IMG/VR virus record: IMGVR_UViG_3300030104_004813
Location: 1-25,446 of that record
DNA from: a virus
Length of the DNA stretch: 25,446 nucleotides
Reading direction: 5' to 3' (one strand)
The translations under genes were made by a program, and so were the position numbers. The notes beneath the pieces were generated by a model. The model saw only the letters and a list, made by a program, of their open reading frames with translations. It ran no database searches and was not told the origin of the DNA. Shown in pieces: positions 1 to 25,446 of the stretch; position 1 is the stretch's first letter, and the number at the start of each line of letters is the position of its first letter.

Positions 1-350
1 TGGGTGTGTTCTGGCAAATGAGACATTACCAAATCAAAGTCAAACTTTTTAGTCACATTTTTATAAAAATCAAAGGTGTTAAAATGAACCCTCATCGATG
101 GTATGTAAGATGGAAAATCCATGAAATGTTGACTCACATTTTTGAAATCTAAATCCTCAACGGGTTCAGGTAAAATCAGATAAAACCATAAGTCATCTCG
201 TATATCATTCAATACGGATATCTGACTTTTTATTGCCTGTATGTAACTATCTTTCTTTAAGTCCTTCAAATAAGTTATATTTGGATAGACTAATATCCTA
301 ATTGTTTTCTGTAATTTTACTTCTTTGTTATAACTAAAATAATCGTTCAT
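1..350 (-). CDS. Glycosyltransferase-like protein, N-terminal part (3' end outside window)
   Basis: The reading frame opens at an ATG at 348-350 and runs off the left edge without a stop, giving about 116 N-terminal residues. After a short charged start comes a strand of Rossmann type (IRILVYPNITY), then a helix. A later stretch, DFDLVMSHLPEHT, resembles the N-terminal half of GT-B glycosyltransferases of the kind annotated in marine T4-like phages. The start codon overlaps the TGA of the PLP enzyme gene (ATGA), so the two are probably translationally coupled. The donor and acceptor cannot be read from this fragment. The family call rests on recognition of the fold pattern, not on a catalytic motif. 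Confidence 0.6.
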   Translation of the reverse strand, partial: MNDYFSYNKEVKLQKTIRILVYPNITYLKDLKKDSYIQAIKSQISVLNDIRDDLWFYLILPEPVEDLDFKNVSQHFMDFPSYIPSMRVHFNTFDFYKNVTKKFDFDLVMSHLPEHT

Positions 351-1096
351 TTTCCTACGTTCCAAAATAAAGAGTTTTTACTTGCATGTTCATTCATAAA
401 TTTCCAAGCCTTACTATCGTAAGTTAATGAACTTGGAAATGGTGGTCTTTCTGGTTCTTTACATTCTTGTTGAAATTTATACTCAGAACGGAAACACTCA
501 GCTCTACCCATTTCATGTAATGTTGTGTTATGTCCTATTTGAACACCATAAATTTTTGCTTCAGGCCAAGCACCTTGTAAACCACGACTCAATACTCCAC
601 TACTCATAACAGTCCAAACTTCTTTTGGTCTAATACCAAGACTTAATGCTGTTCTTCTCATAGTCTCAACTATTATCGGATGGTCACCACCAAATGGAAT
701 TAGATGAGCATCATTATCTAAACAATACTTTTTAGCCTTTGCCTGTATGTTAGTTAGAAACCCCATTGGAACTTCTATTATATTACAACCCAACTCCTCA
801 GCCGCATCTGTTAACCAATATCTCTTTCCTTGTGGAACAGTTACCGTACACTTCCTACCCATATCTTTACAAGCATATGCTAGTGATAACTGAGCATATC
901 CTTGTCTTGGTGAAGCATAAACAAACTCCTCTACATCAGGTTTGTTTTTGACATAAACAGTAAATGCCCGTCTCTTCGTACCACCATCAAGTAGGTCATC
1001 ACGAACAACCCAAAAACCACCATGTTCTTTTACCACTGGTTTTGGTAAGTCTACCTCGTAATCTATCTCGTCTAATTTGTAATCTAATATATCCAC
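347..1096 (-). CDS. PLP-dependent fold-type II enzyme (ACC deaminase / D-cysteine desulfhydrase-like)
   Basis: This 249-residue protein resembles the tryptophan-synthase-beta fold family. The segment RDDLLDGGTKRRA (residues 32-44) matches the GGxKxR motif whose lysine, here K41, forms the Schiff base with PLP. SSGVLSRG (165-172) sits where the phosphate-binding loop is expected, and GGDHP (136-140) is also family-like. Classical ACC deaminases have about 330 residues, so this is a compact form. It begins with GTG, and that G is shared with the TAG stop of the methyltransferase upstream (TAGTG). Its stop overlaps the next start. The substrate is unknown. Coupling to a DNA methyltransferase makes a role in DNA base modification conceivable, but amino-acid metabolism is equally possible. 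Confidence 0.75.
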   Translation of the reverse strand: MDILDYKLDEIDYEVDLPKPVVKEHGGFWVVRDDLLDGGTKRRAFTVYVKNKPDVEEFVYASPRQGYAQLSLAYACKDMGRKCTVTVPQGKRYWLTDAAEELGCNIIEVPMGFLTNIQAKAKKYCLDNDAHLIPFGGDHPIIVETMRRTALSLGIRPKEVWTVMSSGVLSRGLQGAWPEAKIYGVQIGHNTTLHEMGRAECFRSEYKFQQECKEPERPPFPSSLTYDSKAWKFMNEHASKNSLFWNVGK

Positions 1097-2703
1097 TAAG
1101 GTTTATGAAAGATAAATATTGGTTCATATTTTACAGTAACTCCATTGACATCAACTTTGTTTTTGACGTTAGATTGGTCAACACCAACCATAGATGCCAT
1201 CAACATCTTCAACTTACCTTGATATTTACCACCAAGTGATTCAATAATATCAATAGAGTCTTGTTCCAATGGATGAAAGGTATCTTTACCTATCTTAATA
1301 TCAGCGATGTTCCAAAGTAAATATCTATCTGACCTTAGACTCTCGTAAGCATTTGTCAATGTTGGTTTAAGAAAGTTATCTCTCCAATCAGAGTACATCG
1401 GATAGGCCTTAAATGATTGTTCATCATCATCTGAATATTGTTCCCTATCAAAGTAAGGTGGTGAAGTAAATACCATATCTAACTTACCTTTATATTGTTG
1501 GTAGTCTGGATGGTCACCAACATGTTCAGAACCTATTTGGAAATAATGATAAGTGTTTTTCTGTTCTTCCCAAAACATATTTGTTTCTAATCCATGTTCA
1601 TTGAAAAAGTCAGCAACATATTCGTATCTTGACTTACCTATCTCATCTATGTAATTATCAGTATTCGGGTCTGTTCCGATATAATGTATTCTCTTCTTGG
1701 AAGCCATAGCACCAAGAATCCTACCACCCCAACCACTTGACGGGTCGTAAATGTTTAGTGGTTCGTCTTGTTTGATATGGTCTGTATATTTTTCATATAA
1801 TAATCTAGCAGTAAGTGGGGGGAAGTTAACTGCTGGTTGTGAGTTCAAACTCAATCTGAATATCTGAAATGCTGATGGGAATAGTTTCCTATGAATGTTA
1901 TAGTATCTAATCATAAAAACATTTCTCTTTAGTTTACCACCCTTCGTAGAAACATGGTCATCTAAATCTTCAACAGACATCAACTTTTTTAACGTGGGGC
2001 ACCATAAATTGGTAACCATCTCATCAGTAATTAATCCCTTATCATAAGCATACTTTATATCATCAGAAGATAAAGTCACATATTGTTTAAGATACTCTTC
2101 CTTATGAGACTTAGAAATCCATAAACGGATATCTTTAAATTTTAATTTATTGTCGTGATAATATTCTAACCACTCTAATGCTGACTCTTCGTTCCAATAT
2201 GGTAGTCCACCCTTATCATTTTCTTTTCTATCTAAAGATACAGATTTACTGAAACTATACATGGAATCTCTACGAACTCCCCTTCTCATAGACCTAAAGA
2301 AAAGGTCTTTATTTGAGTCCTCTTTAATTCTATCATAGATTGAGTTAAGTCCAACATCACCAGTATCTCCAATACGAGTTTTCATCATAGTTGGGAAGAA
2401 TTGGTTGACACCATTAGCAAACTTATTAAAGTTCTTAATTACATTCCTTTGACCATCGTCAGCTTTTTCTATGAAACCATGTATGTCATACTCTCTGAGT
2501 TTCTTGAATGAACTAATTATCTGGTCAATGTTCTGACCAACCATCGGTGGTGTACCACGCTCATCCCAATCCTCAATGATGAACTGACGAGCTTCTTCAA
2601 TCCACTCGTCAAGTTCTTCATCAGTTTTTAGGAACAACTCGTGATAAGTGATATTGATTTTAGAATCAATGATACCACTTTTCTCGTAGTAGTATTTACT
2701 CAT
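1096..2703 (-). CDS. DNA methyltransferase (N6-adenine or N4-cytosine type) with a long N-terminal extension
   Basis: The C-terminal half has the two signatures of an amino-methyltransferase: a SAM-binding motif I (DPSSGWGGRILGA, about residues 320-332) followed by a TDPN acidic loop, and the catalytic motif TSPPYFD (about 413-419). The SPPY form fits N4-cytosine or N6-adenine transfer. The first 290 residues match nothing I recognise; they are charged and helical and may carry target recognition or a protein-interaction domain. I chose the ATG at 2703 over the in-frame GTG one codon upstream because it forms an ATGAGTAA overlap with the preceding gene and has AAGG upstream. No restriction endonuclease is adjacent, so protection of phage DNA is the likelier role. 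Confidence 0.85.
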   Translation of the reverse strand: MSKYYYEKSGIIDSKINITYHELFLKTDEELDEWIEEARQFIIEDWDERGTPPMVGQNIDQIISSFKKLREYDIHGFIEKADDGQRNVIKNFNKFANGVNQFFPTMMKTRIGDTGDVGLNSIYDRIKEDSNKDLFFRSMRRGVRRDSMYSFSKSVSLDRKENDKGGLPYWNEESALEWLEYYHDNKLKFKDIRLWISKSHKEEYLKQYVTLSSDDIKYAYDKGLITDEMVTNLWCPTLKKLMSVEDLDDHVSTKGGKLKRNVFMIRYYNIHRKLFPSAFQIFRLSLNSQPAVNFPPLTARLLYEKYTDHIKQDEPLNIYDPSSGWGGRILGAMASKKRIHYIGTDPNTDNYIDEIGKSRYEYVADFFNEHGLETNMFWEEQKNTYHYFQIGSEHVGDHPDYQQYKGKLDMVFTSPPYFDREQYSDDDEQSFKAYPMYSDWRDNFLKPTLTNAYESLRSDRYLLWNIADIKIGKDTFHPLEQDSIDIIESLGGKYQGKLKMLMASMVGVDQSNVKNKVDVNGVTVKYEPIFIFHKP

Positions 2704-2887
2704 CACCTACCTTATCTAAGGTATCTGGTTTCATCCAAGAAGTTGCACCAACTTTCTTTACATATAGTTGTGCATCTTCATCATTTCGTGCTAAAAACTT
2801 TACAGGTTTAGCATCTTTACCTACACCCTCAAGGTATGTGTATTCACCATAACCTTTCCATTGAGTTTGATTTTTATTTTTCGGCAT
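2696..2887 (-). CDS. Small conserved-type hypothetical protein
   Basis: This 63-residue soluble, lysine-rich protein has no family I recognise. It is fairly rich in aromatics (WKGYGEYTYLEGVG near the start) and looks like a compact beta fold. Its start overlaps the end of the upstream 69-residue gene by 14 bases and its stop overlaps the methyltransferase start, so it belongs to the same transcript. Nothing shows its function. Confidence 0.6.
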   Translation of the reverse strand: MPKNKNQTQWKGYGEYTYLEGVGKDAKPVKFLARNDEDAQLYVKKVGATSWMKPDTLDKVGDE

Positions 2888-3229: not shown

Positions 3230-3258
3230 AATTTACGAAGATTTTGGTAAATAGTCAA
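3230..3258 (-). promoter_or_regulatory. Candidate sigma-70-like promoter (TTGACT-N17-TAAATT)
   Basis: The -35 hexamer TTGACT lies at 3253-3258 and a 4/6-match -10 box TAAATT at 3230-3235, with a 17-base spacer. It falls in the last codons of the nucleosidase gene and would serve the membrane peptide gene starting at 3202. Thirteen bases around the -35 (3253-3265) recur exactly at 11289-11301. Confidence 0.4.
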
Positions 3259-3916
3259 GCACTTTTTTCTTAAATTCTACAATACCTTTTCCAACATTCT
3301 CTTCCCAATCATTACTAGCATCTGGATCAGCTGTATCTGTAATATATTTAAACGATATAAATGGTACATCATATAACTTACATACTTTTGCTAGAGCATA
3401 AGATTCCATATCTACCACATCTCCCATAGTTTTATCTTGTACAAAAGAATCACCACTACCACATAGAGCCTTCTTACCTATAGGATTAAACTCTGATTCA
3501 CTCTGAACTATTATTGGAATGTCTTCTTCAAATGGTGTCTGACCTAACCTTAAACCAAGTGGAGTTACATCCATATCTCTCTGAACAAATCGTGTGCAAT
3601 CTACCAAGTCACCTTTTCTATATTCCCAATGTTGTGAACCAGCAGTTCCATAATTAATCACTAAATCATATGGTATATGTGAACCAAACTTACCAAATTT
3701 CTGTGTTAGTTTAAATGTGGCATTTACCTTACCAACTCCAGTATATAGAACATCATAGTCATCCAATTGTCCTTGAGTCTCTATTGGTAGAGCACAAACA
3801 ATAAGTGTTTTTTTCATGTTAGTGTTTCCCTTTATATGTTTTGGTTCGTATGGACACATCAAACAACCATGTCCGCAACAATAACCTCTTTCTGTTAAAA
3901 ACTCCCTTGATAACAT
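3233..3916 (-). CDS. MTA/SAH nucleosidase-like protein with a Cys-rich N-terminal motif
   Basis: From about residue 34 onward this is a nucleoside phosphorylase/MTAN-type domain. It has ALPIE near its start (E46), a glycine-rich TGVGKVNA loop (59-66), VDMES (168-172) with the nucleoside-binding glutamate E171, and ITDTAD (192-197) with the expected catalytic aspartate D194. It should cleave methylthioadenosine and/or S-adenosylhomocysteine to adenine. Residues 1-33 carry RGYCCGHGCLMCPYEPKH, a four-cysteine motif like the small bacterial DUF5522-type proteins, probably metal-binding. The frame is open through both parts. An internal ATG at 3817 with AAAGGG ten bases upstream could also give the nucleosidase alone. 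Its ATG overlaps the phoH stop (TAATG). Another purine nucleosidase specificity is possible. Confidence 0.8.
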   Translation of the reverse strand: MLSREFLTERGYCCGHGCLMCPYEPKHIKGNTNMKKTLIVCALPIETQGQLDDYDVLYTGVGKVNATFKLTQKFGKFGSHIPYDLVINYGTAGSQHWEYRKGDLVDCTRFVQRDMDVTPLGLRLGQTPFEEDIPIIVQSESEFNPIGKKALCGSGDSFVQDKTMGDVVDMESYALAKVCKLYDVPFISFKYITDTADPDASNDWEENVGKGIVEFKKKVLDYLPKSS

Positions 3917-4641
3917 TAGTCATGACTTAAATCTATTTCATGTTCATCCTCGTATGTCTTCAAGATTCTCTTAACCAACGGATGTCTAACACAATCTTCT
4001 CTATTAAATGCCATGTGATTAACACCCTCGACACCTTTTAATCTAAACCAAGCATCATAGAAACCACTCTTCTCGTATGCTGTAACTCTGTTAGCCTTGA
4101 ACTTATCACATTGTGACATGTCACCTTGTATAATCATCTTACAATTTTCAGATATTCTTGTCATCAAAGTCTTGATTTGCATAGGTGAAACATTCTGAGC
4201 CTCATCAAGTATCACATAACAATTCTCTAAGTTAACTCCCCTCAGAAAGTTTAACACTCCAATCTCTAATTTATTATCCGAAATCATCTTGGTTGCTCTA
4301 GCCTTACCAATAATCTTGTCTAATATCGTAAAGGTGGATTCATTATATTGTTGTATCTTTTGACTCAACTCACCTGGTAAGTATCCTAACTTATCTTCAT
4401 TACCAACGTCTACTGTAGGATTTATTATAATGAGTTTATGATAAGGTGTCCCTCTTCTTAACACATCTTGTAGAGCTCTATAGATGGACACATAAGTTTT
4501 ACCAGTCCCAGCTATCCCATGACACAATACAAGTTGAGTATCTTCCTCTCCTATTATATTGTAGAATATGTTTTGATTTGCTGTTCTCGGATTGAAATTG
4601 TTTACTATCTTTGGTATGGCACCGATTGTTTTTCTAGGCAT
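3916..4641 (-). CDS. phoH: PhoH-like P-loop ATPase
   Basis: This 241-residue protein has a Walker A motif (GIAGTGKT, residues 42-49) and a Walker B motif (VILDEAQN, 143-150). It also has the PhoH-typical segments NPTVDVGNEDKLGYLPG and IQGDMSQCDK. PhoH proteins are predicted RNA-binding ATPases or helicases and are almost universal in marine T4-like phages. Despite the name, a role in phosphate starvation is unproven in phage. It lies between apt, whose end it overlaps by 8 bases, and the nucleosidase gene. Confidence 0.93.
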   Translation of the reverse strand: MPRKTIGAIPKIVNNFNPRTANQNIFYNIIGEEDTQLVLCHGIAGTGKTYVSIYRALQDVLRRGTPYHKLIIINPTVDVGNEDKLGYLPGELSQKIQQYNESTFTILDKIIGKARATKMISDNKLEIGVLNFLRGVNLENCYVILDEAQNVSPMQIKTLMTRISENCKMIIQGDMSQCDKFKANRVTAYEKSGFYDAWFRLKGVEGVNHMAFNREDCVRHPLVKRILKTYEDEHEIDLSHD

Positions 4642-5125
4642 ATTTTACTACTGACCTCACATTTAAGTTAAAGTTATCGATTCTTGGAACATATTTCAAA
4701 TCAACTAAAACTAAATTACCTACCACTTCGTATCCAGCCTTTTCAGCCAAATTATTAGTTGCCTGTAATGTCCCACCTGTTGCTAATACATCATCAACTA
4801 TAACCACTTGACCATTACCTGGTTGTAATTCTAACGTAGCAGTTCCATACTCTAAATCATATGTCTCACTAACAAATTCGCCAGGTGTTTTACCTTGTTT
4901 TCTAGCACATACTACACCACCACCAAAATAAGTGGCAAGTGCTGAAGAAAAAAGATAACCACGAGAGTCTATCCCAATCCAATAATCTGGTAACCTAACT
5001 TGTCTACCCATATCTACAAGAGCAGACCTAAATGTCTCTTGGTCTGCAAGTAATGGTGATATGTCTTTAAAGTCAATTCCATCTATTGGAAAGTTCGGTA
5101 CTTCTTTTATAAATTCTTTATACAT
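4634..5125 (-). CDS. apt: Adenine phosphoribosyltransferase
   Basis: This 163-residue type I phosphoribosyltransferase makes AMP from adenine and PRPP. The N-terminus matches APRT (FPIDGIDFKDISPLLAD, residues 12-28), GIDSRGYLFS (51-60) is the family's substrate-binding region, and VVIVDDVLATGGTL (107-120) is the PRPP loop. The length is slightly below bacterial Apt (about 170-180). GAGG lies six bases before the ATG. Its stop overlaps the phoH start. With a nucleosidase two genes downstream, the pair forms an adenine-release and salvage route. Confidence 0.92.
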   Translation of the reverse strand: MYKEFIKEVPNFPIDGIDFKDISPLLADQETFRSALVDMGRQVRLPDYWIGIDSRGYLFSSALATYFGGGVVCARKQGKTPGEFVSETYDLEYGTATLELQPGNGQVVIVDDVLATGGTLQATNNLAEKAGYEVVGNLVLVDLKYVPRIDNFNLNVRSVVKYA

Positions 5126-6592: not shown

Positions 6593-8320
6593 TTATTTCA
6601 TTATTAAATATTTACTGATTAGTAACCCATCGATGTCATTTTCTATAAATGTTTTTATTGCTTGGTCTGGTGAGTTAACTAATGGTTCATTCACATTAAA
6701 ACTTGTATTCATAAAAACAGGAACCTCTGTCTTTTGTCTAAATTTATGTAATGCATCATAGATAATTTTATTCTGACTTCGGTTTACTGTTTGTGGTCTA
6801 CAACTATTATCAACGTGAACAACTGCTGGTATCTTATTTCTCCACTCTTCTTTAACCTCACTAGCCATCAACATAAATGGTGATTTATGTTTAGCATTAG
6901 TTATCTCAAATAAAAACTCCTCAGGCATTACTGGTGCTAGTGGTCTCCACCATTCTCTCTTCTTGATTCTATTCACCCTCTGTAGATTTTCTAATTTGGT
7001 TGGATTTGCAAGTATACTTCTGTTACATAATGCCCTTGGACCCACTTCAGATTTCCCATTAAAATAACCCATCACACAATCCCACTCATATAAACAATGT
7101 GCCAATGCATCTGAAGGATCGACCACGTCATAAATCATACCATTTCTATCTAAAGCATCCAAAATCTCTTTGTCTGTATAGTAACTACCATGATAAGCGT
7201 TATTCATACTCAAGGATGGAAATTCATTGGTATGTTTTTTATGTGATAAAATAGCAGAACCAAAGGCTACACCAGAGTCGTGAGCAGCAGGTTGAATGAA
7301 TATATCACCCTTTACCTTTTTCTCTAATTTACCATTAGTAGTACAATTTAACATACTACCACCTGACAGACAAAGATTCTTACTATCGTTGTATTTAAGT
7401 AAATTTTCGTAATTATGAATCACAAGTGTCTCGAAAATATCTTGACCTGTAGCAGCTAAATTTAGGATTTTCTCTGATGGTAACTTACCCTCACCAGCTT
7501 CATGAAAATCTTTTAACTCTTTTTGAAAGTCATCATCATCTAATATATTGGCAACTATTTCATTATAATTATTGGTAAATGGATATCTGAAACCCAAATC
7601 ATCTTCTCTATACCTCATCGGAAGTAAATCATAATCAACTTTACCATAACAAGCAAGTCCCATAGTTTTACCCTCACATCCATGTGTATCAAAGGCAAGA
7701 GCATTAGTCACTTGTTCATAGAATAGACCAAAACTTGTTAAAGCATTTGAAAAAGAAACAGTCTTCATCTCAAGACCATCCCAAAAACCAAACAAACTTG
7801 ATATACCACCACCATCTCCATCTATAGACATGTAGTTAGTATCCGGAAAACCAGATGGTATGACACTACTTGCAACATGAGAAGTATGATGGTCGAACCA
7901 CTCTATTTTGTATGGTTTAAATCGAGCTCGATTATTTCCATCCAAATGTTCAATACTCCATTCATTCATCAACCAATTTATTGTACCATACTCCGAATCT
8001 AAAACGTCTTGTGGATAAGCACCACACCAATCAGTATCGTTGTAACCAGACTTTTTAGCGAAACGTGGACTATGCCTTCTACTTATCTCATCAAGTCTCG
8101 AAAACCCAACAGACACGAAATCTATATCCTCTGGTTTTAGATTAGCAACCCTCAGACAATTGGTTGCTGCGTTTTTTGGTGGTAAGATTTTATCACCATC
8201 TTTAGAGAATTTAAATCTATTGTATCTTTCCTCTTCTGACCAAGAAATCAAGTCACCATCAATCAACAAACATGCAGCTTGATTATATGACAAAAGAGGT
8301 GTTATTCCTAATATGACCAT
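6593..8320 (-). CDS. Carbamoyltransferase of the NodU/CmcH/TobZ family
   Basis: This 575-residue protein has both halves of the family. The Kae1-like N-terminal domain has EEERYNRFKF, the metal-binding FDHHTSHVASS (HxxxH), SIDGDGGG and SGGSMLNC with QPAAHDSGVAFGSA. The YrdC-like C-terminal part has GKSEVGPRALCNRSILANP and MNTSFNVNEPLV. These enzymes move the carbamoyl group of carbamoyl phosphate, through carbamoyl-AMP, to a hydroxyl of a sugar or natural product. The N-terminal segment where relatives carry a His-Asp pair (YHDSAAAL type) reads SYNQAACL, so the usual histidine appears to be tyrosine. No Shine-Dalgarno site is seen before the ATG. The acceptor might be a glycan made by the cluster to the right, or a modified base. 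Confidence 0.92.
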   Translation of the reverse strand: MVILGITPLLSYNQAACLLIDGDLISWSEEERYNRFKFSKDGDKILPPKNAATNCLRVANLKPEDIDFVSVGFSRLDEISRRHSPRFAKKSGYNDTDWCGAYPQDVLDSEYGTINWLMNEWSIEHLDGNNRARFKPYKIEWFDHHTSHVASSVIPSGFPDTNYMSIDGDGGGISSLFGFWDGLEMKTVSFSNALTSFGLFYEQVTNALAFDTHGCEGKTMGLACYGKVDYDLLPMRYREDDLGFRYPFTNNYNEIVANILDDDDFQKELKDFHEAGEGKLPSEKILNLAATGQDIFETLVIHNYENLLKYNDSKNLCLSGGSMLNCTTNGKLEKKVKGDIFIQPAAHDSGVAFGSAILSHKKHTNEFPSLSMNNAYHGSYYTDKEILDALDRNGMIYDVVDPSDALAHCLYEWDCVMGYFNGKSEVGPRALCNRSILANPTKLENLQRVNRIKKREWWRPLAPVMPEEFLFEITNAKHKSPFMLMASEVKEEWRNKIPAVVHVDNSCRPQTVNRSQNKIIYDALHKFRQKTEVPVFMNTSFNVNEPLVNSPDQAIKTFIENDIDGLLISKYLIMK

Positions 8321-17587: not shown

Positions 17588-18820
17588 TTAGTTAGTCTTA
17601 CAAACGACTAAGTTTTTTTCGTATGTTTCAAGTGATTTGATGTAAAACTTAAATATATCGTATTCCATCTCACCTATCTCTCCACTATCTTGTAGCATTT
17701 TTGATAAGTTAACTAGCACTTGAAAGTTTTCATTGTTCAATTGTTCAGCGTTGAACTCCACACAGATATCATGTAACTCTGATATTTTATTATGTCCATA
17801 TAGTTTTATTTTCTCATCCAAATCAAACTGAGTATTTGGTTGTTCTTCTTTTACATACTCACCCATAATATCTGAATCACTTAGGTCTAAATATATTTTA
17901 CTACACCAAGGCTCTAACTCATACAACATCTGTTTACTACAACGATAAACTACAAAAGCAACATCATATTTTGGTGGAACTATTGGTTTAAGATACTCAT
18001 CATGTTGAACCATATGTCCCCACTTACGAATGAAGTTACGAGTAGACCTTAGATTTTGAGCTAACCACTCTGATGATTCTCTACCCTTCATGAACACTTG
18101 ACCTGCTGGATTTCTCATAGCTCCATCTTTGAATCGTGAACCTCTACAAGTCATATGATAAACATAACCACTCCAAGTCTGTATTGTCTCATAACCAGCC
18201 AATTGGAATCTATTAAAGATATCAGAGTCTTCTTTTGATTGTGGAGCATATAAAGGATCATGACCACCTATCGCCAAAAAGTCGTCTTTGTATATTGCCC
18301 AAGGAGCAAAGATACCCTCAGTAGTTTTATCTTCTGGCATCCCTTCCCAAGTTTGATTTACAAAATCTATTAATCCTTGTTCATCAAACTCTTCTGGTTC
18401 TATACCAAAATCTTGTAATACCTTTTCAGGACCATCAGGATGTAGTGGTGGTTCTATCCTTGTAGCTGATACCACCTTACCTCTCTCTAAATGTTTTAGA
18501 ACTTCTACATCCATATTAGGACACGCATACATATCAGCGTGGTATATCATTACAATATCACTTGTCGCCATATCTACTAACGTATCATAAAGTATAGTGT
18601 GACCTAATCTTGTAGGACCTTCATTACGATGTATCTTTACATTCTTATCTTTTTCAGCAATCTCTTGCATCCACTCCCAAGTTCCATCATCAGAGAAATC
18701 ATCAGCCCAACATATCTCATGTCGGTATCCGAGATTCTTTCTGATACTATTGTAAGACCATTGTAGATACTTTAGATTGTTTCTACTTGGTTGTATAAAA
18801 CTAATTATTCTATCATCCAT
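17588..18820 (-). CDS. Family 2 (GT-A) glycosyltransferase
   Basis: The first 250 residues form a GT-A fold. SFIQPSRNNLKYL opens the domain, ICWADDFSDDGTWEWM is the GT2 nucleotide-binding acidic region, and DIVMIYHADMYA supplies a DxD-like metal site (HADM). WSGYVYHMTCRGSRF near residue 215 is typical of the GT2 acceptor side. The extra 150-residue C-terminal part (IVPPKYDVAFVVYRCSKQ and onward) is unassigned and may be a second domain. The gene begins with a TAATG overlap with the oxygenase gene. Confidence 0.83.
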   Translation of the reverse strand: MDDRIISFIQPSRNNLKYLQWSYNSIRKNLGYRHEICWADDFSDDGTWEWMQEIAEKDKNVKIHRNEGPTRLGHTILYDTLVDMATSDIVMIYHADMYACPNMDVEVLKHLERGKVVSATRIEPPLHPDGPEKVLQDFGIEPEEFDEQGLIDFVNQTWEGMPEDKTTEGIFAPWAIYKDDFLAIGGHDPLYAPQSKEDSDIFNRFQLAGYETIQTWSGYVYHMTCRGSRFKDGAMRNPAGQVFMKGRESSEWLAQNLRSTRNFIRKWGHMVQHDEYLKPIVPPKYDVAFVVYRCSKQMLYELEPWCSKIYLDLSDSDIMGEYVKEEQPNTQFDLDEKIKLYGHNKISELHDICVEFNAEQLNNENFQVLVNLSKMLQDSGEIGEMEYDIFKFYIKSLETYEKNLVVCKTN

Positions 18821-19482
18821 TATAAAACCTCATAATATCCACCAATACCAAACGGTATCTTGGTGTTAATTGTTAAATGTTCACTTTCTATATACCTTGA
18901 TTTAGGTATAACTCTAAAGTCAAAACTAACCCTAGTAATTGACGTTATGTTTTGTTTATTACCATGTGTTAATTTACTAGCACTCCACTCTATACAATCA
19001 CCATACTCAGCCTTCATTTCTTGATAGTCTCCCAAATCTTCTTCGGTCTCTGCCCATATCGTGTTAGTTCCATATGCCTTTGTTAATGGTACAAAGTAGT
19101 TTAACTCCTCTACTTTTTCAGCCCACTTCTCATCTCTGTAATGTTTATCTTTATGAAACTCTCCAACGGATACATTATTTGGTAAGTGAACTCTAAAAGT
19201 TGGTATTTTTTGATAGACTATTTCTTCTCCAAATCTTGGTTTAATTATGTCGTGTAAAAAATCTGTATATGAATCATCAAAACTTTTATCTTCTCTAATC
19301 ATTTCATAAAAACACTTATGCCATATTGTAGATTGGTCATGTTCTCTATCAAACAATTCATAGTCTCGTTCAGAGTGTAAACTCGGTAAACCAAAATAGG
19401 GTAAAATACCACGATTAAAAAACCATTGTGACACTATGTCTCTAAACAAATAATTCTCTATATCATAGGTTATTCTATCCAC
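18820..19482 (-). CDS. 2-oxoglutarate/Fe(II)-type oxygenase within the glycan cluster
   Basis: The 220-residue product carries the jelly-roll oxygenase pattern: VGEFHKDKHY gives HxD (H110, D112), LNYFVPLTKAYGTNTIWAE and GDCIEWSASKLTHGN follow with H173 as the distal ligand, and ITRVSFDFRVIP ends the core with R184 for 2-oxoglutarate. It resembles the StrG-like oxygenases of sugar and antibiotic clusters. The start is GTG with GGGAG seven bases upstream. It lies between glycosyltransferase genes, so a sugar or a glycan-linked group is the likely substrate. Confidence 0.72.
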   Translation of the reverse strand: MDRITYDIENYLFRDIVSQWFFNRGILPYFGLPSLHSERDYELFDREHDQSTIWHKCFYEMIREDKSFDDSYTDFLHDIIKPRFGEEIVYQKIPTFRVHLPNNVSVGEFHKDKHYRDEKWAEKVEELNYFVPLTKAYGTNTIWAETEEDLGDYQEMKAEYGDCIEWSASKLTHGNKQNITSITRVSFDFRVIPKSRYIESEHLTINTKIPFGIGGYYEVL

Positions 19483-20284
19483 CCCTTAACTCCCTCTGTC
19501 TTTTCCACTCTGGTATATCATTGGATATCTTATTGTAATTATCAAACACTTTAAAGGTAGATACGCCTTTGTAATGAAATACAAATGATGTCTTACATAA
19601 CATTGAAAAATCATCGTTTGTAATTAAATTATCCCAATTAAATTGGTCTTCATTTTTTGTCATGATTTTATCTGTCTTGAAAAGTTCATCTTCATTTTGC
19701 TCATAAATGGTTATATCACGATTCATCATAAAGAAAAACCCATTAAACATTTTCATTCTAGCAGGATCACACAAGTACAGATTATTAGAGTTTCTCATTT
19801 CCTCTTTTACTTTTAGTATTTCATCTTGAACATGTTGATAATCTTCTGGCTCATCAACCTCAAGACCATGATAATAGTTATTAACATTTTGTGTGAGATT
19901 GTGACCAACACCATATTCAGTAGACATTGGTACTACTAAACTTGAGTTCCATTTTTTAAAGGTAGAAACCAACTCTCCGATAGCACCTTTTGGAATTAAG
20001 ATATCATTATTAGCAAGTATAAAGTAGTCATAATCAGTACCTTCTTCAGTAGTCCCCAAAAACTCACGATATCCTATATTCCAAGAATCAGTTAAGCCCT
20101 TTGGTTCATCTTTTGTTATAACACGATAACCATATTCTTTACAAATATCAACAGTATCATCTGTACTATAATCATCAACAACCAAAACATCTATATTGTC
20201 GTCTAATTTTTTAAGTGATTCAAAACACAACTTCGTATAATGTGATTGATTGTATGTTGTTATAACTAATAAAATTTTACTCAT
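19475..20284 (-). CDS. Family 2 (GT-A) glycosyltransferase
   Basis: A textbook GT2 start, MSKILLVITTYNQSHYTKLCFESL, with the acidic LVVDDYSTDDT (34-44) and the metal site FILANNDILIPKG (about 88-100). It adds a sugar from a nucleotide donor. The ATGAGTAA overlap with the preceding gene suggests coupled translation. The sugar and acceptor are not known. Confidence 0.87.
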   Translation of the reverse strand: MSKILLVITTYNQSHYTKLCFESLKKLDDNIDVLVVDDYSTDDTVDICKEYGYRVITKDEPKGLTDSWNIGYREFLGTTEEGTDYDYFILANNDILIPKGAIGELVSTFKKWNSSLVVPMSTEYGVGHNLTQNVNNYYHGLEVDEPEDYQHVQDEILKVKEEMRNSNNLYLCDPARMKMFNGFFFMMNRDITIYEQNEDELFKTDKIMTKNEDQFNWDNLITNDDFSMLCKTSFVFHYKGVSTFKVFDNYNKISNDIPEWKRQRELRGG

Positions 20285-21170
20285 AGCTTTTCCACTCGAT
20301 TCTTGTAGGCACTTCTGTACCCTCGATTGGTACTACGAAAGTATCTTCATCTTCAATTGGTAATCTACCCCATTTATCTACCCATTTACGCATGTTAATT
20401 TCTTCTGCCTCTTGTTGTCTTTTTGACTTCATGTGAAACTTATCTTTAGCCTCATCTCTAAAATGACTACCACGAGCAGAGAAATGCCATACAACAGATT
20501 GTGGTATCATTTTAAATTCATACCCCTCTAACTGCATACGAATGAATAAATCTTTATCTTCCCACGAAGCTGGTCTAAACAAATCATCATTCCCACCTAT
20601 CCATTTATAGTCCTCGACTCTACAGAAGAACCCAGCACCACCACCTTTACGAACTTCTAACTCACCATTCATTTGTGAAAACTCTGTAGCCCATTTATCA
20701 AATGAATTAGAATCAAAATCTTCAGCATATGCTCCAAATTCATCCGTATCTACAAACACCGTGCCAGGTCTGTAATCAGGATCGTTGACAAATATTCTTG
20801 GTTGTATTCTAAATGATGAAGCAATTAATTTGGTATCTCCGATATCATCATACAACTTCAATAATTCCAAGTCTTGATTAGGAGCAATCCACATATCAGA
20901 ATGAATAATATTCACGAACTCGGTCTTAACTTTATCGACACAAAAGTTCATACCACCACCTATACCTTTCGGGTCATTGTTATTGTCTATATAATATTCT
21001 AAATCATATTTTGTGTAATTAGAATCTAACCAATTAATAGTACCATCATTACAATTTTCAGCGTGAACAATTATAGGCATGTCCTTGTGATAAGCATTTT
21101 GTCTTACCGACTTAATTGCTAGTTTTAAATAATCTAAATTATTATTTGTAGATATAGTGGTAGTTATCAT
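20277..21170 (-). CDS. Family 2 (GT-A) glycosyltransferase
   Basis: This GT2-type protein has TTTISTNNNLDYL at the start and NCNDGTINWL in the donor region. FVNIIHSDMWIAPNQDL holds a DxD-like site, and VWHFSARGSHFRDEAKD resembles the acceptor segment seen in the 17588 gene (YHMTCRGSRFKDGA). The two may be distant duplicates. The ATG overlaps the fkbM stop (ATGA). Confidence 0.84.
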   Translation of the reverse strand: MITTTISTNNNLDYLKLAIKSVRQNAYHKDMPIIVHAENCNDGTINWLDSNYTKYDLEYYIDNNNDPKGIGGGMNFCVDKVKTEFVNIIHSDMWIAPNQDLELLKLYDDIGDTKLIASSFRIQPRIFVNDPDYRPGTVFVDTDEFGAYAEDFDSNSFDKWATEFSQMNGELEVRKGGGAGFFCRVEDYKWIGGNDDLFRPASWEDKDLFIRMQLEGYEFKMIPQSVVWHFSARGSHFRDEAKDKFHMKSKRQQEAEEINMRKWVDKWGRLPIEDEDTFVVPIEGTEVPTRIEWKSYE

Positions 21171-21739
21171 GTTAATTTTATTCTCGTATTTAAAGAATCT
21201 ACCCCACTAAACGTATATCCAAGAGGTTCAAACTTTTCTTTCAAGATGTTCATTCCATATTTGCCTTTTCTAAGGTGATGATGTTCAAACATAATTTCTT
21301 TTATTATATACTTGTCCGTATCAATTGACATCAAAATTTCACCATCCAATCCTTCGGTGTCAACAAACAAATAGTCTAAGGTTGTAACTGAGTATTTTTC
21401 TAACAACTCATTTATGGTCATAGCATCAACCTCAAAACTCTTTACAGGATCTGGTTGGTCAAATGAACTTGTATGTTCTTTAAAAATAGAATTAAATGCC
21501 GTGTTTGGCCAATGATACCATATTGTGACCTTATCTTCTTTTCTATCTTCAGGAACTATAGCAATAGTCTCCGTACTTATATTTTTTTCTTGTAATAATG
21601 AACCATAACACTCTTTAGCCAATGTCATCATTTCACTCATAGGTTCAACTAACACACCAAATTCTATATCTTGGTCTTTCACAAAACGATAACAATGGTC
21701 GTGTGCATTAGATGTACCAATTTGTATAAAATTAATCAT
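21167..21739 (-). CDS. FkbM-type methyltransferase
   Basis: The 190-residue product has the FkbM hallmarks: FIQIGTSNAHDHC near the start, LVEPMSEM as the SAM acidic loop region, and TLDYLFVDTEGLDGEILMSID. FkbM enzymes O-methylate sugars or natural products. I prefer the ATG at 21739 with GGAG six bases upstream; the in-frame GTG at 21751 has no such site. It overlaps the neighbouring glycosyltransferase stop by eight bases. Its product SAH could be a substrate for the nucleosidase at 3233. Confidence 0.88.
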   Translation of the reverse strand: MINFIQIGTSNAHDHCYRFVKDQDIEFGVLVEPMSEMMTLAKECYGSLLQEKNISTETIAIVPEDRKEDKVTIWYHWPNTAFNSIFKEHTSSFDQPDPVKSFEVDAMTINELLEKYSVTTLDYLFVDTEGLDGEILMSIDTDKYIIKEIMFEHHHLRKGKYGMNILKEKFEPLGYTFSGVDSLNTRIKLT

Positions 21740-22766
21740 TTTCAACTCCACTTAAATTAGCAAAAAAATTATACCAATACATACAAAAATTATGAGCAGA
21801 ATATATCTCCTTGTACGTCTCTCTTGACTTACCTATAATATACTCAATTTTATCGTTATTGTCAAGCGTTTCCAAGACAACTTCGTTTAAATTTTTCCAA
21901 TCATAATCGACAGGAATATACGTCTCATTTTCTATGTAATAATTTGGTGTGGTTACAACATTTTCCATAGTTGGTTTTAACATAGCAACACCCAAATCAA
22001 GTATCTCAAAATCTCTGTAACAAACTTCTCCCATACCAAATGGTGACAATGCCAGTTTAGATTTATATAATGTATTCATATACTCATCAAATGGTAATTT
22101 ATCTTTTACAAAAGTATAGCCAGGATTATCACCTATGATATCCCACGCACCACCTCTATGTTTTGTATAGTACATATCATTTCTAATTAGATGTTCTGTA
22201 TTTTTCTTATGAAACCCTTGATATATAGCACACAAATCTATGGTTTTTTCTGTACACACTGGGTGTTCTTTATAAACATCAGGTCTAAATCTATCACCTT
22301 GAAAGTAACCAAGATTGAAACCAGATAATTTTATTCTATCCCAAACATCTTTTGGTATGTCATAACCTTTGTCCAAATCAGAACCATTTCCAAAAAACCA
22401 CTTGTTTAATACAGTCGGTTTTAAATAGTCCTCTCTATTTTTTAATAATTGATTTTTAAATAAAAATTTAGCATCACTTTGTTCAAATACTTCGTATGAG
22501 CCAATTAAAGATGTGGAGTCGCTTCCATCAAATAAAAAATAATCACCACTAATATCTTTACAACTCTCAAGACCATAGTCAATACTATCTTCTAAACTCA
22601 AACCCTTATTCAATATATTATGAGCACCAACAAATAGGTAATCATAATCATTAGAATCTGTTATTTCTATACTATAATCTCTTAACTGATTTTTAAGTGC
22701 ATAAAAACCAAAGAAAGAAATTCTATTTTTACCAACAAATGGTTCTCTTATTTTTATTTTTATCAT
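21732..22766 (-). CDS. Glycosyltransferase, exostosin-like (GT-B type)
   Basis: The 344-residue protein has SPFGMGEVCYRDFEILDLGVAML split over 241-263, the pattern SPFGxGExCxRDFE typical of exostosin/GT47-like transferases, where it binds the nucleotide sugar. Upstream parts (IDLCAIYQGF, then KHRGGAWDIIGDNPGY) fit the donor half. A promoter-like sequence lies inside its 3' part. The sugar is unknown. Confidence 0.72.
   Translation of the reverse strand: MIKIKIREPFVGKNRISFFGFYALKNQLRDYSIEITDSNDYDYLFVGAHNILNKGLSLEDSIDYGLESCKDISGDYFLFDGSDSTSLIGSYEVFEQSDAKFLFKNQLLKNREDYLKPTVLNKWFFGNGSDLDKGYDIPKDVWDRIKLSGFNLGYFQGDRFRPDVYKEHPVCTEKTIDLCAIYQGFHKKNTEHLIRNDMYYTKHRGGAWDIIGDNPGYTFVKDKLPFDEYMNTLYKSKLALSPFGMGEVCYRDFEILDLGVAMLKPTMENVVTTPNYYIENETYIPVDYDWKNLNEVVLETLDNNDKIEYIIGKSRETYKEIYSAHNFCMYWYNFFANLSGVEND
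21837..21865 (-). promoter_or_regulatory. Internal sigma-70-like promoter (TTGACA-N17-TATATT)
   Basis: TTGACA at 21860-21865 and TATATT at 21837-21842 with a 17-base spacer lie inside the 3' part of the exostosin-like gene. It could drive fkbM (start 21739) and the genes after it. It shares GCTTGAC with the promoters at 3253 and 9550. Coding constraint could produce such a match by chance, but the two boxes are near-perfect. Confidence 0.55.
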
Positions 22767-23725
22767 GACAATGAACCTATATCGTGGTCTACCATATTAT
22801 GTACCATCTGTTCAAAAGATGTTTCTGGTTTCCATCCTAAAACATCACGAGCTTTAGATGAATCACCACACAGAACAGCAACTTCTGCTGGTCTCATGTA
22901 CCTCTCGTCTTGTACAACATAGTTACTCCAATCATCTATACCAACTCGTTTAAAGGCGACATCTAAAAATTCTCCAATGGTATGTTCTACACCTGTAGCG
23001 ATAACATAATCATCAGGTTCATCTTGTTGTAACATCATCCACATTGACTTAACATAATCAGGTGAGTATCCCCAATCCCTTTTAGAATCTAAGTTACCTA
23101 ACCTTATGTGGTCTTCATATCCTAAGTATACTTTAGCAACACCATCAGTAATCTTTCTTGTTACAAATTCAATACCTCGTCTTTCTGACTCGTGATTAAA
23201 AAGAATACCACTAACATTAAACATATCATATGATTCCCTATAGTTCTTTGTAATCCAATGACCATATAATTTAGCAACTCCATAGGGTGAACGAGGATAG
23301 AAAGGTGTGTTCTCGTTTGCTGGATTTTCAATCATTCTACCATAAAGTTCAGAGGTTGACGCTTGGTAGAATCTTATATCTTTAATTCCTGACTCTCTTA
23401 CAGCCTCTAACATTCTTAAGGCACCAAGAGCAGTAACATCACCAGTTTGTTCAGGCGTGTTCCAACTCTCACCCACGAATGATTGAGCAGCAAGATTGTA
23501 AACCTCATGTGGATTTGATTTTACTAAACACCTAACCAATGAATTTTGGTCTGTCAAGTCACCATTTAAAAATGTTATCTTACCCTCTAAATGTCCAGTG
23601 TTGACTCTGTTTGGACTTGATGTCCTTCTCTCCATACCATAGACTTCATACCCCTTTCCCAAAAGAAAGTCAGCAAGGTGACTACCATCCATTCCGTTAA
23701 TACCTGTAATTAATACTCTCTTCAT
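22763..23725 (-). CDS. gmd: GDP-mannose 4,6-dehydratase
   Basis: This 320-residue short-chain dehydrogenase-type enzyme makes GDP-4-keto-6-deoxymannose, the precursor of fucose and related deoxysugars. TGINGMDGSHLADFL (7-21) is the NADP glycine motif, ASTSELYG (122-129) and SPYGVAK (146-152) supply the catalytic Thr/Glu and YxxxK (Y148, K152). LFNHESERRGIEFVTRKI is specific to Gmd. The length is slightly short of bacterial Gmd (about 345-370). No gmer/wcaG follows, so host enzymes may finish the sugar. The ATG overlaps the stop upstream (ATGA). Confidence 0.95.
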   Translation of the reverse strand: MKRVLITGINGMDGSHLADFLLGKGYEVYGMERRTSSPNRVNTGHLEGKITFLNGDLTDQNSLVRCLVKSNPHEVYNLAAQSFVGESWNTPEQTGDVTALGALRMLEAVRESGIKDIRFYQASTSELYGRMIENPANENTPFYPRSPYGVAKLYGHWITKNYRESYDMFNVSGILFNHESERRGIEFVTRKITDGVAKVYLGYEDHIRLGNLDSKRDWGYSPDYVKSMWMMLQQDEPDDYVIATGVEHTIGEFLDVAFKRVGIDDWSNYVVQDERYMRPAEVAVLCGDSSKARDVLGWKPETSFEQMVHNMVDHDIGSLS

Positions 23726-24729
23726 TTTGACTCCAATATTTTTTTCAAATCATCATACTCTTTAAACTTACCTTTACCTGATATTAATTTATCTATGTTC
23801 TCTTTTGATAGTTTTAAAAATTGTTGAAAACTATCGTTCTTTTGATTAATAAATGAATATGGATTATCCTCATTCTTTACATACATTCTCTTTTGTGGAT
23901 GTCTTCTAGCATGAACATGTAAGATATTCTGACACACAAATTGTAAATAGTCTTGTCCTAATAATTTATGAGACATGATTGATAATCCCTCATCATCATT
24001 ATACAATAAACAAGATGGAATGTTGATACCAGACTTAATAAAATCCGATGATAATACCAAACAAGCACCACTCAGTTTGGGATGGGTAATGTATGAAAAA
24101 TCAAAATCGTCTGCCCTACCATTTATCGTATTCATTTTTTCTATTGACATCGGTGACTTTGCTTGGTTAGGATTTAAATGTCCCTTATCATCATCAACAA
24201 ATTCTATATCACGATAGTCCACATGAACTAATGGATCCCAACTCGCATCCCACATTTTTCTATCCGAAAAACTTAATAAATATCTGTGAATATTTTGTTC
24301 GTCTGTATACTCTGCTAGTCTTTCTACTACTTGAAATGCCTCTCGTGGAAAAAAACTATCTGTTTCACCCCACATCACATAATCCACTTTTTTACAATAG
24401 TTGTAATTTAAATCTCTTCTGTAATCCGCATGAAAATAAAACTCATCGTCTTTGTCTTTTACTTCATAGTTAACAATGAAACCCATCTCTTCTAATGTAG
24501 CTACACCCCTTTTGAATTTTACATACAACTCATGTTTTTTTATTTTATCTTCATCAACTTTTTCAAAATGTTGCAACATATTAAAACATAAGTCTATAGT
24601 TACATTCTCTGTGTTTTCTACTGTCTCTAAAAGATTAACCATACCTTTTATAAAGTCAGCATACATTTCTATTTCGAACCACATCACATGAGTTCCAATT
24701 ACATACTTTCTTTTTAATATATTACTCAT
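23722..24729 (-). CDS. Putative glycosyltransferase (GT-A type)
   Basis: The 335-residue product has KKVDYVMWGETDSFFPREAF near residue 110-130 as a possible metal/donor region and HPKLSGACLVLSSDFI with YNDDEGLSIMSHKLLGQDYL in the acceptor half, a GT-A pattern. The first 100 residues diverge from standard GT2 starts. It sits between gmd and a GT8-like gene, with ATGAGTAA coupling to the latter. The assignment rests on context plus these motifs. Confidence 0.62.
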   Translation of the reverse strand: MSNILKRKYVIGTHVMWFEIEMYADFIKGMVNLLETVENTENVTIDLCFNMLQHFEKVDEDKIKKHELYVKFKRGVATLEEMGFIVNYEVKDKDDEFYFHADYRRDLNYNYCKKVDYVMWGETDSFFPREAFQVVERLAEYTDEQNIHRYLLSFSDRKMWDASWDPLVHVDYRDIEFVDDDKGHLNPNQAKSPMSIEKMNTINGRADDFDFSYITHPKLSGACLVLSSDFIKSGINIPSCLLYNDDEGLSIMSHKLLGQDYLQFVCQNILHVHARRHPQKRMYVKNEDNPYSFINQKNDSFQQFLKLSKENIDKLISGKGKFKEYDDLKKILESK

Positions 24730-25446
24730 AATTTTTTTTAACCTTTTCCCATAATTGTTTTATAAATCCATCTTGAAAATCTCTTGGTATACCATTGAAA
24801 TGCCAGAACCAACCCATGTCCATAAAATAATAATTTTGTAGTATCTCTTTTCTAGCCATGTGAACTAAATTAAACTTTTCTGACATGAAATGTATATCAG
24901 TATTATTGTAGGTATTAAAGTAGTTAAATGGCGTTTGGTCAAAACCCTTACGAACTTGTTTTTGAAAATCAAATATACTTTCAGAGTTATCAATATAAAA
25001 TTGTTTAAATGATTGATATAAATCCTTGTGACTTTGGTCAAATAATTGTACGCCTGAATTGAAATATCTTTCCCAATCTAAATCGATACCTTCAAATAAT
25101 TGTTTATAAGCATTTATACTTTCCCAAACCCAACTTAAACCAGAATTATCTCTGACTACATATAGTTTTTCCAACTCATTGTAATAATCAAATATATCAG
25201 GAGAATCCCAATGAACCATGACATCCGAATCTATGTAAAGATATCTATCATAGTCTGGTTTCAAATCAAAAATAAAGTATCTAAACCAATGTGGCGTACC
25301 CACATCGAATTGTGGTTTGTCAATCACATAAAAGTCTATGTCATATTTTTTACAATAATGTAACCAACTCTGTTTTGTAACTTCATGAATTCCAGCATCG
25401 TCCACCTCTCGTTTTTCTTTGTTAACTGCCAGAGTGTATATTAGTT
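24722..25446 (-). CDS. GT8-like glycosyltransferase (5' end outside window)
   Basis: The frame remains open to the right edge, reading LIYTLAVNKEKREVDDAG before the first internal GTG at 25405, so the start lies outside the window. The visible part has SWLHYCKKYDIDFYVID, WFRYFIFDLKPDYDRYLYIDSDVMV with the DSD metal site, and YFNSGVQLFDQ, all typical of GT8-like glycosyltransferases. The C-terminal WFWHFNGIPR is likely the acceptor-side histidine region. It is the first gene of the visible glycan cluster. Confidence 0.82.
   Translation of the reverse strand, partial: LIYTLAVNKEKREVDDAGIHEVTKQSWLHYCKKYDIDFYVIDKPQFDVGTPHWFRYFIFDLKPDYDRYLYIDSDVMVHWDSPDIFDYYNELEKLYVVRDNSGLSWVWESINAYKQLFEGIDLDWERYFNSGVQLFDQSHKDLYQSFKQFYIDNSESIFDFQKQVRKGFDQTPFNYFNTYNNTDIHFMSEKFNLVHMARKEILQNYYFMDMGWFWHFNGIPRDFQDGFIKQLWEKVKKNYE

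Follow-up and report, generated by a model that had tools for sequence, protein, structure and literature searches.

Hypermodification of phage DNA gives protection against restriction, and we know of no case that is built by transfer of a 3-amino-3-carboxypropyl (acp) or aminopropyl group. The transferases TYW2, Tsr3, TapT and SpeE, which handle such groups, act on tRNA, rRNA or polyamines. CmoX of phage S-B43 is a DNA transferase that uses carboxy-S-adenosylmethionine (carboxy-SAM) and has CmoA genes nearby (PMC12783734). We analyzed a viral DNA of 25,446 bases, the whole of IMG/VR record IMGVR_UViG_3300030104_004813 (hereafter the window), whose genes are like those of marine T4-like phages. 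Three of its genes overlap in series; they encode a PPY-type SAM-dependent DNA 'methyltransferase' (MT1), a fold-type-II pyridoxal 5′-phosphate (PLP) enzyme and a glycosyltransferase (GT)-B-like protein. An SN1 homologue of this PLP enzyme sits in a cassette given as M6-type thymidine modification genes (PMC9476957). We propose that MT1 and the PLP enzyme constitute a two-step DNA-base-modifying unit, an explanation that, taken as a whole, we judge to be evenly poised between right and wrong.

The overlapping genes and their products

The first-pass annotation of the window had described three minus-strand genes joined by stop/start overlaps, and all the open reading frames and both junctions are indeed present; the three overlapping genes are real. 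MT1 (536 aa) occupies positions 1096..2706 of the minus strand, its start lying at 2703 if an ATG is used, and is followed on the same strand by the PLP enzyme (249 aa, 347..1096). The first two genes meet in TAGTG, with one base (1096) common to both, and the PLP and GT-like genes meet in ATGA at 350-347. Only the 5′ part of the accessory GT-B-like gene (1..350, minus strand, first ATG at 350) lies in the window before the gene runs off its edge; relatives encode 456 aa. The MT1-PLP junction is kept in relatives down to about 40% identity, and the overlap is thus far from chance.

MT1 has the set of PPY-type amino-methyltransferase (N6-methyladenine/N4-methylcytosine, m6A/m4C) features, namely a SAM motif I, a [DNST]PP[YFW] motif IV and a Rossmann methyltransferase core, the latter in an AlphaFold2 (AF2) model with a predicted local distance difference test (pLDDT) score of 84.7. 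PADLOC assigns it to MTase_II. In an alignment of 27 members (A3), motif I, IYDPSSGWGGRILGAMA (1702..1752, minus strand), contains R329 (1720-1722), which is invariant in all 27 and has its counterpart in the Arg of the GGSVRG motif of the wider ParB-MTase family, to which hhalign relates MT1 at 97.9%. Motif IV, TSPPYFDREQYS (1432..1467, minus strand), is the PPY motif of enzymes acting on exocyclic amines, and T414-S415-P416-P417-Y418-F419, E422 and Y424 are invariant in the same alignment. The Pfam match to N6_N4_Mtase (E 4e-6) is confined to residues 410-535 in the C-terminal part, so about 290 N-terminal residues are extra, as had been noted. The accompanying label was DNA methyltransferase; comparison across the family suggests that a group larger than methyl may be transferred.

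The N-terminal region of about 290 residues (1837..2706, minus strand) occupies the position of a ParB-like domain in relatives. It has no recognised domain, although its aligned residues are conserved, among them N101, F104-P105-T106-M107, R142, D147 and Y150, and it possibly serves DNA recognition. We found no sequence match to it in PDB. A check of its structure returned methyltransferase-fold proteins as the best Foldseek hits to the MT1 model, and neither these nor PDB sequences offered a distinctive solved structure for this region.

The PLP enzyme matches PALP in Pfam (E 6e-10) and phrog_7093 (E 5e-35), which PHROGs labels 'threonine dehydratase', and its AF2 model (pLDDT 89.9) retrieves the fold-type-II proteins D-cysteine desulfhydrase, threonine deaminase and CysK in Foldseek. 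K41, the predicted Schiff-base lysine in GGTKRR (974..976, minus strand), is invariant in 26 of 26 aligned sequences, and the SSG loop is also conserved, which bears out the earlier description of a compact fold-type-II enzyme with this lysine. A C-terminal signature, PPFPSSLTYDSKAW...LFWNVGK (350..445, minus strand), recurs in gp52 of Pseudomonas phage M6 as APFPCNPFYDLKAW...VFWNIGE, the two sharing PFPxxxxYDxKAW...FWNxG. Together with tblastn (E 2e-7) and profile comparison by hhalign (98.3%, E 1e-14), this signature identifies the window enzyme, at the sequence level, as a distant homologue of M6 gp52. In Mycobacterium phage Vincenzo, gp1, a ParB-MTase, overlaps gp2, a PLP protein homologous to those of ViI-like Ackermannviridae. 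We take the M6 and ViI PLP enzymes to decarboxylate amino acids that are carried on thymine derivatives of the DNA. Membership of the window in the M6 pathway itself is rejected on the lack of aGPT-Pplase and kinase: neither M6 aGPT-Pplase1 nor the P-loop kinase had a match in the window record or in the records of eight marine relatives, all of these records being fragments, and the M6 control was found.

Conservation and fusion of the pair

The MT-PLP pair is conserved far beyond the window, in many unrelated phages, Microcystis phage Mae-JY30 among them. Among marine relatives of the PLP enzyme in IMG/VR, MT1 lies directly upstream of it in 22 loci and one gene apart in about 10 more, and the PLP gene comes first in the more distant relatives L110, L117, L120 and L121. 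Further marine loci have the PLP gene without MT1; in seven of them a shorter methyltransferase of the same family follows 2-4 genes downstream. Viewed from the other side, a PLP gene lies within 2.5 kb in 32 of the 73 MT1 loci that leave room to judge. In a second scan, for which a broader PLP alignment was the seed, 80 other viral loci were covered (the best 80 of at least 540), and a PPY-type methyltransferase is immediately upstream of the PLP gene in 76; one of the four exceptions has fewer than 200 bases upstream. A search for the pair in a sample of 385 genomes from a single bacterial class recovered only the seed genome itself, the other 384 being without the PLP family, which is thus rare in chromosomes of the class sampled. 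In the literature searched, which misses most subscription papers, we came upon neither an MTase-PLP nor a ParB-MTase-SpeD pair. Downstream of its cassette, one marine relative (L007:12426-14747) has two more methyltransferases of the MT1 family, MT2 and MT3, which share 47% identity.

In three cultured phages, the PLP domain lies inside the methyltransferase. Erythrobacter phage ZS04 encodes an 812-residue protein that runs from a ParB-like N-terminus through methyltransferase motif I and a whole PLP domain to motif IV; in the homologous R6L record the methyltransferase is matched in the same split way; and in Pseudanabaena phage Pam4, a PLP domain of a different subfamily is nested likewise between motifs I and IV. 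PAPS-reductase-like genes occur near the pair in ZS04 (L132:1-939) and in a Flavobacteriales contig (L140:3716-4396).

Com, a regulator in phage Mu, controls the DNA-modification gene mom. Alphaproteobacterial Mu-like prophages (L139, L141 and L148) have a Com zinc-ribbon gene ahead of the MT-PLP pair; none was noted in the window, where no systematic search for Com was made. The first-pass annotation had supposed that all three overlapping genes act together on DNA. For MT1 and the PLP enzyme, adjacency in either order, nested fusions, Com-linked operons and homology to M6 gp52 make such joint action very probable; the GT-like gene is not a fixed third member.

Donor-site residues and the proposed chemistry

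We also scanned with the wider methyltransferase family, taking Croceibacter phage P2559S as the seed. Of the 80 loci obtained (L244-L323), 35 have a gene for SAM decarboxylase (SpeD) adjoining the methyltransferase gene, usually overlapping it, and none of these 35 has the PLP gene. Sixteen of the decarboxylases were tested; every one matches AdoMet_dc and retains the cysteine as well as the ESH processing site. The arrangement is present in two cultured phages, P2559S and Pseudomonas phage ZRG1 (L238 and L324). The P2559S enzyme restores spermidine synthesis in Escherichia coli (PMC9992855), and hence makes decarboxylated SAM. It has previously been read as a polyamine synthesis enzyme. No spermidine synthase was found in 15 records of the SpeD clade, including the complete genomes of P2559S and ZRG1, and no SAM decarboxylase in 11 PLP-partnered phages.

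Motif I of the methyltransferase differs with the partner. Next to a decarboxylase it reads D[PC]FAGD[ST]VFG (DTFAGDTVFG in ZRG1), with Phe in all 28 readable dereplicated sequences; next to a PLP enzyme it reads GGSVRG, with Arg in 35 of 36. SpeD-clade members that lack SpeD have Lys (L263, L264 and L271), Val (L261), Thr (L281) or a disrupted motif (L255). A Fisher test of 28/1 versus 0/5 gives p = 2e-5, a value that is only indicative given that the sequences are related. In L263 (1960-3141) and L264, both with Lys, an overlapping gene of 384-394 residues and of unknown family replaces SpeD. The variable residue of motif I may face the methionine moiety, and the change from Arg to Phe, together with a gained Asp, would be expected if the donor had lost its carboxylate.

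Pairing, conservation, fusions, PLP homology and motif covariation, all read from sequence, support the following scheme. MT1 would flip its target base out and move a SAM-derived group to an exocyclic amine, N6 of adenine or N4 of cytosine as its PPY motif predicts. That group would be acp instead of methyl, with methylthioadenosine (MTA) as the by-product; we thus propose MT1 as an aminocarboxypropyl (or methyl) transferase. The PLP enzyme would then form a Schiff base with the alpha-amine of the acp side chain on DNA and, most likely, decarboxylate it to leave an aminopropyl arm. The sister clade may arrive at this arm by another route: its overlapping SAM decarboxylase would supply decarboxylated SAM, from which aminopropyl would be transferred directly. 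Some marine phages may decorate the arm further, having GNAT, 2-oxoglutarate (2OG) oxygenase and GT-B/TAGT-like genes nearby. An acp or aminopropyl arm is proposed because it would be a substrate for a PLP amino-acid enzyme or a GNAT protein, as methyl would not. The identity of the transferred group, which step comes first, the base targeted and nuclease protection are our inferences, and we hold the acp/aminopropyl chemistry itself tentatively, as somewhat less probable than its opposite. Since MT1 is tied to the ParB-type family at the profile level only, we place less confidence in this chemistry for the window than for that family. Just as tentative is the general proposition that a widespread family of phage 'DNA methyltransferases' adds acp or aminopropyl arms in place of methyl, by two routes distinguished by an Arg-to-Phe switch at the donor site.

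Several observations weigh against this scheme. No PLP gene lies within 2.5 kb in 41 of the 73 MT1 loci with room to judge, so that MT1 functions without it and could be methylating. Partnerless family members keep the motif-I Arg, and the Arg alone is therefore no proof of acp transfer. In the sister clade, L258 combines SpeD with Leu, L255, which lacks SpeD, retains a displaced Phe, and the link between SpeD and Phe rests largely on one clade with a few losses. The covariation at the donor site is seen in that clade rather than in MT1 itself, and a SAM decarboxylase was sought in 29 marine MT1/PLP records and was absent. Bacteria too have members of the PLP family, which in L145, L146, L149, L152 and L153 are not near a methyltransferase.

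Alternative readings, neighbouring genes and known systems

The alternative that survives best extends the two-step unit into a three-enzyme hypermodification, in which MT1 and the PLP enzyme install the side chain and the GT-B-like protein, with a TAGT-like one, adds a sugar; we regard it as possible but doubtful. A full-length relative of the GT-like protein (L007:7732-9102) has weak matches to three sugar-transfer families, including Glycos_transf_1 and Glyco_trans_1_2, the best at E 1e-4 and below the Pfam cut-off, and a search of PDB gave no sequence match to a solved GT; the earlier GT-B-like label rests on the former. A GT-like gene follows the PLP gene in 31 of the 53 marine loci with a following gene, and the gene after it in close relatives matches the TET-associated glycosyltransferase (TAGT) family. 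The 31 comprise 17 of family c9 and 14 of family c17, which cannot be merged, as they have no detectable homology; elsewhere the slot holds other genes. The three-gene order recurs in most marine relatives, with two unrelated families in the third place, but no GT of either family was seen beside the MT-PLP pairs of the wider, 80-locus scan. Genes for Asp_Arg_Hydrox 2OG oxygenases flank the PLP gene or MT1 in other loci, as further tailoring would predict. The window has a separate dense glycosyltransferase region (17588-25444; GT2, GT8) with a GDP-mannose-dehydratase-like gene, which may make a surface glycan or a DNA sugar, and GTs serving surface glycans would count against a role on DNA. 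We regard the GT-like gene, from its distribution, as a local addition and an optional tailoring gene; sugar addition in the phage of the window is plausible, if on the unlikely side.

Less probable is that MT1 is an ordinary m6A/m4C methyltransferase and that the PLP enzyme acts on a free metabolite, for instance producing an amine or amino acid for a different enzyme to place on DNA. The PPY motif, the N6_N4_Mtase matches, the many MT1 relatives without a PLP gene and the motif I shared by partnerless relatives all fit this reading, which we nevertheless consider unlikely: it leaves the tight pairing, the nested fusions and the parallel pairing with SAM decarboxylase unexplained, and the closest phage PLP homologue of known context sits in a DNA-modification cassette. 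We think it quite improbable that the PLP enzyme acts off DNA on SAM itself, making a modified donor for MT1. SpeD and the carboxy-SAM/CmoX system provide analogies, but PLP-partnered methyltransferases keep the motif-I Arg, with Phe found where decarboxylated SAM is the predicted donor, and the M6 homologue belongs to a cassette described as acting in post-replicative modification. Finally, public records annotate the PLP enzyme as threonine dehydratase, ACC deaminase or carboxylate deaminase, and distant bacterial relatives lie away from methyltransferases, but that it is an auxiliary metabolic gene (an amino-acid deaminase) merely packed beside MT1 is disfavoured to the point of being very improbable by the adjacency in 76 of 80 loci, the nested fusions, the Com-MT-PLP operons and the finding that, of 385 genomes sampled from a single bacterial class, 384 lack it.

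Upstream of MT1, the window encodes an MTA/S-adenosylhomocysteine (SAH)-nucleosidase-like protein (3233..3916, minus strand; PF01048, E 7e-16; NCBIfam MTA/SAH nucleosidase models below their cut-offs), whose synteny with MT1 holds in many relatives, whether or not they have the PLP gene. Its nucleosidase part is joined to an N-terminal DUF5522-like cysteine cluster, a fusion that we do not know from elsewhere. An adenine phosphoribosyltransferase (4634..5125, minus strand; NF002636 over cut-off) possibly salvages adenine after the nucleosidase. The two proteins could clear either MTA or SAH, and do not discriminate between these by-products. A NodU/TobZ-type carbamoyltransferase with both Pfam domains (6593-8320) lies near the MT-PLP operon and was not seen in the matching stretch of L007. 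A variable slot near the pair in relatives holds nuclease-like genes, including an HNH gene with a weak GmrSD_N match, a GHKL ATPase and an AAA protein (L007:10000-11685, L009:9090-10679, L019:4924-6534, L039:7727-9961 and L033:4612-6150), for which we note a general restriction-modification reading. GNAT and Asp/Arg-hydroxylase-type 2OG oxygenase genes are found nearby, with or instead of the PLP gene (L098:1267-2380, L095, L113:1633-2823, L140:1790-2932 and L323), and a GNAT protein (c16) is present in some MT1 loci without it.

If the two-step scheme of acp transfer and decarboxylation is true, DNA methyltransferase annotations are misleading in many phages, and P2559S and phages like it use their SAM decarboxylase for something other than making polyamines. 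The cultured phages Vincenzo (on M. smegmatis), P2559S, ZRG1 and R6L make the idea testable by mass spectrometry.

Each of the described systems resembles the proposed unit in part. The type II m6A/m4C methyltransferases CcrM, MboIIA and TTHA0409 share its PPY motif and Rossmann core, and profiles of the wider family match their chains; their motif I, however, reads GTGTT or GVGTT, whereas here it is GGSVRG or GWGGR and is accompanied by a long N-terminal domain and a PLP partner. With TYW2, Tsr3, TapT and SpeE the likeness is one of proposed donor and transferred group. The com-mom operon of Mu offers a parallel in the Com-like regulator ahead of the pair in Mu-like prophages, but the genes behind it there are a methyltransferase and a PLP enzyme, not Mom. 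In the M6/SN1 cassette, which is a phage DNA-modification cassette, there is a homologous fold-type-II PLP enzyme that shares the C-terminal signature; M6-type cassettes begin from 5-hydroxymethyl-deoxyuridine (5-hmdU) with a kinase and an aGPT-Pplase, whereas the partner here is a SAM-dependent PPY methyltransferase. CmoX and CmoA of S-B43 likewise combine a non-methyl SAM-derived donor, a linked donor-making gene and later tailoring, often with ParB-type genes nearby. CmoX, with an SPPC motif, transfers from carboxy-SAM onto cytosine C5, whereas the enzymes described here have a PPY motif and a PLP or SAM decarboxylase partner and are predicted to place an acp or aminopropyl group on an exocyclic amine.

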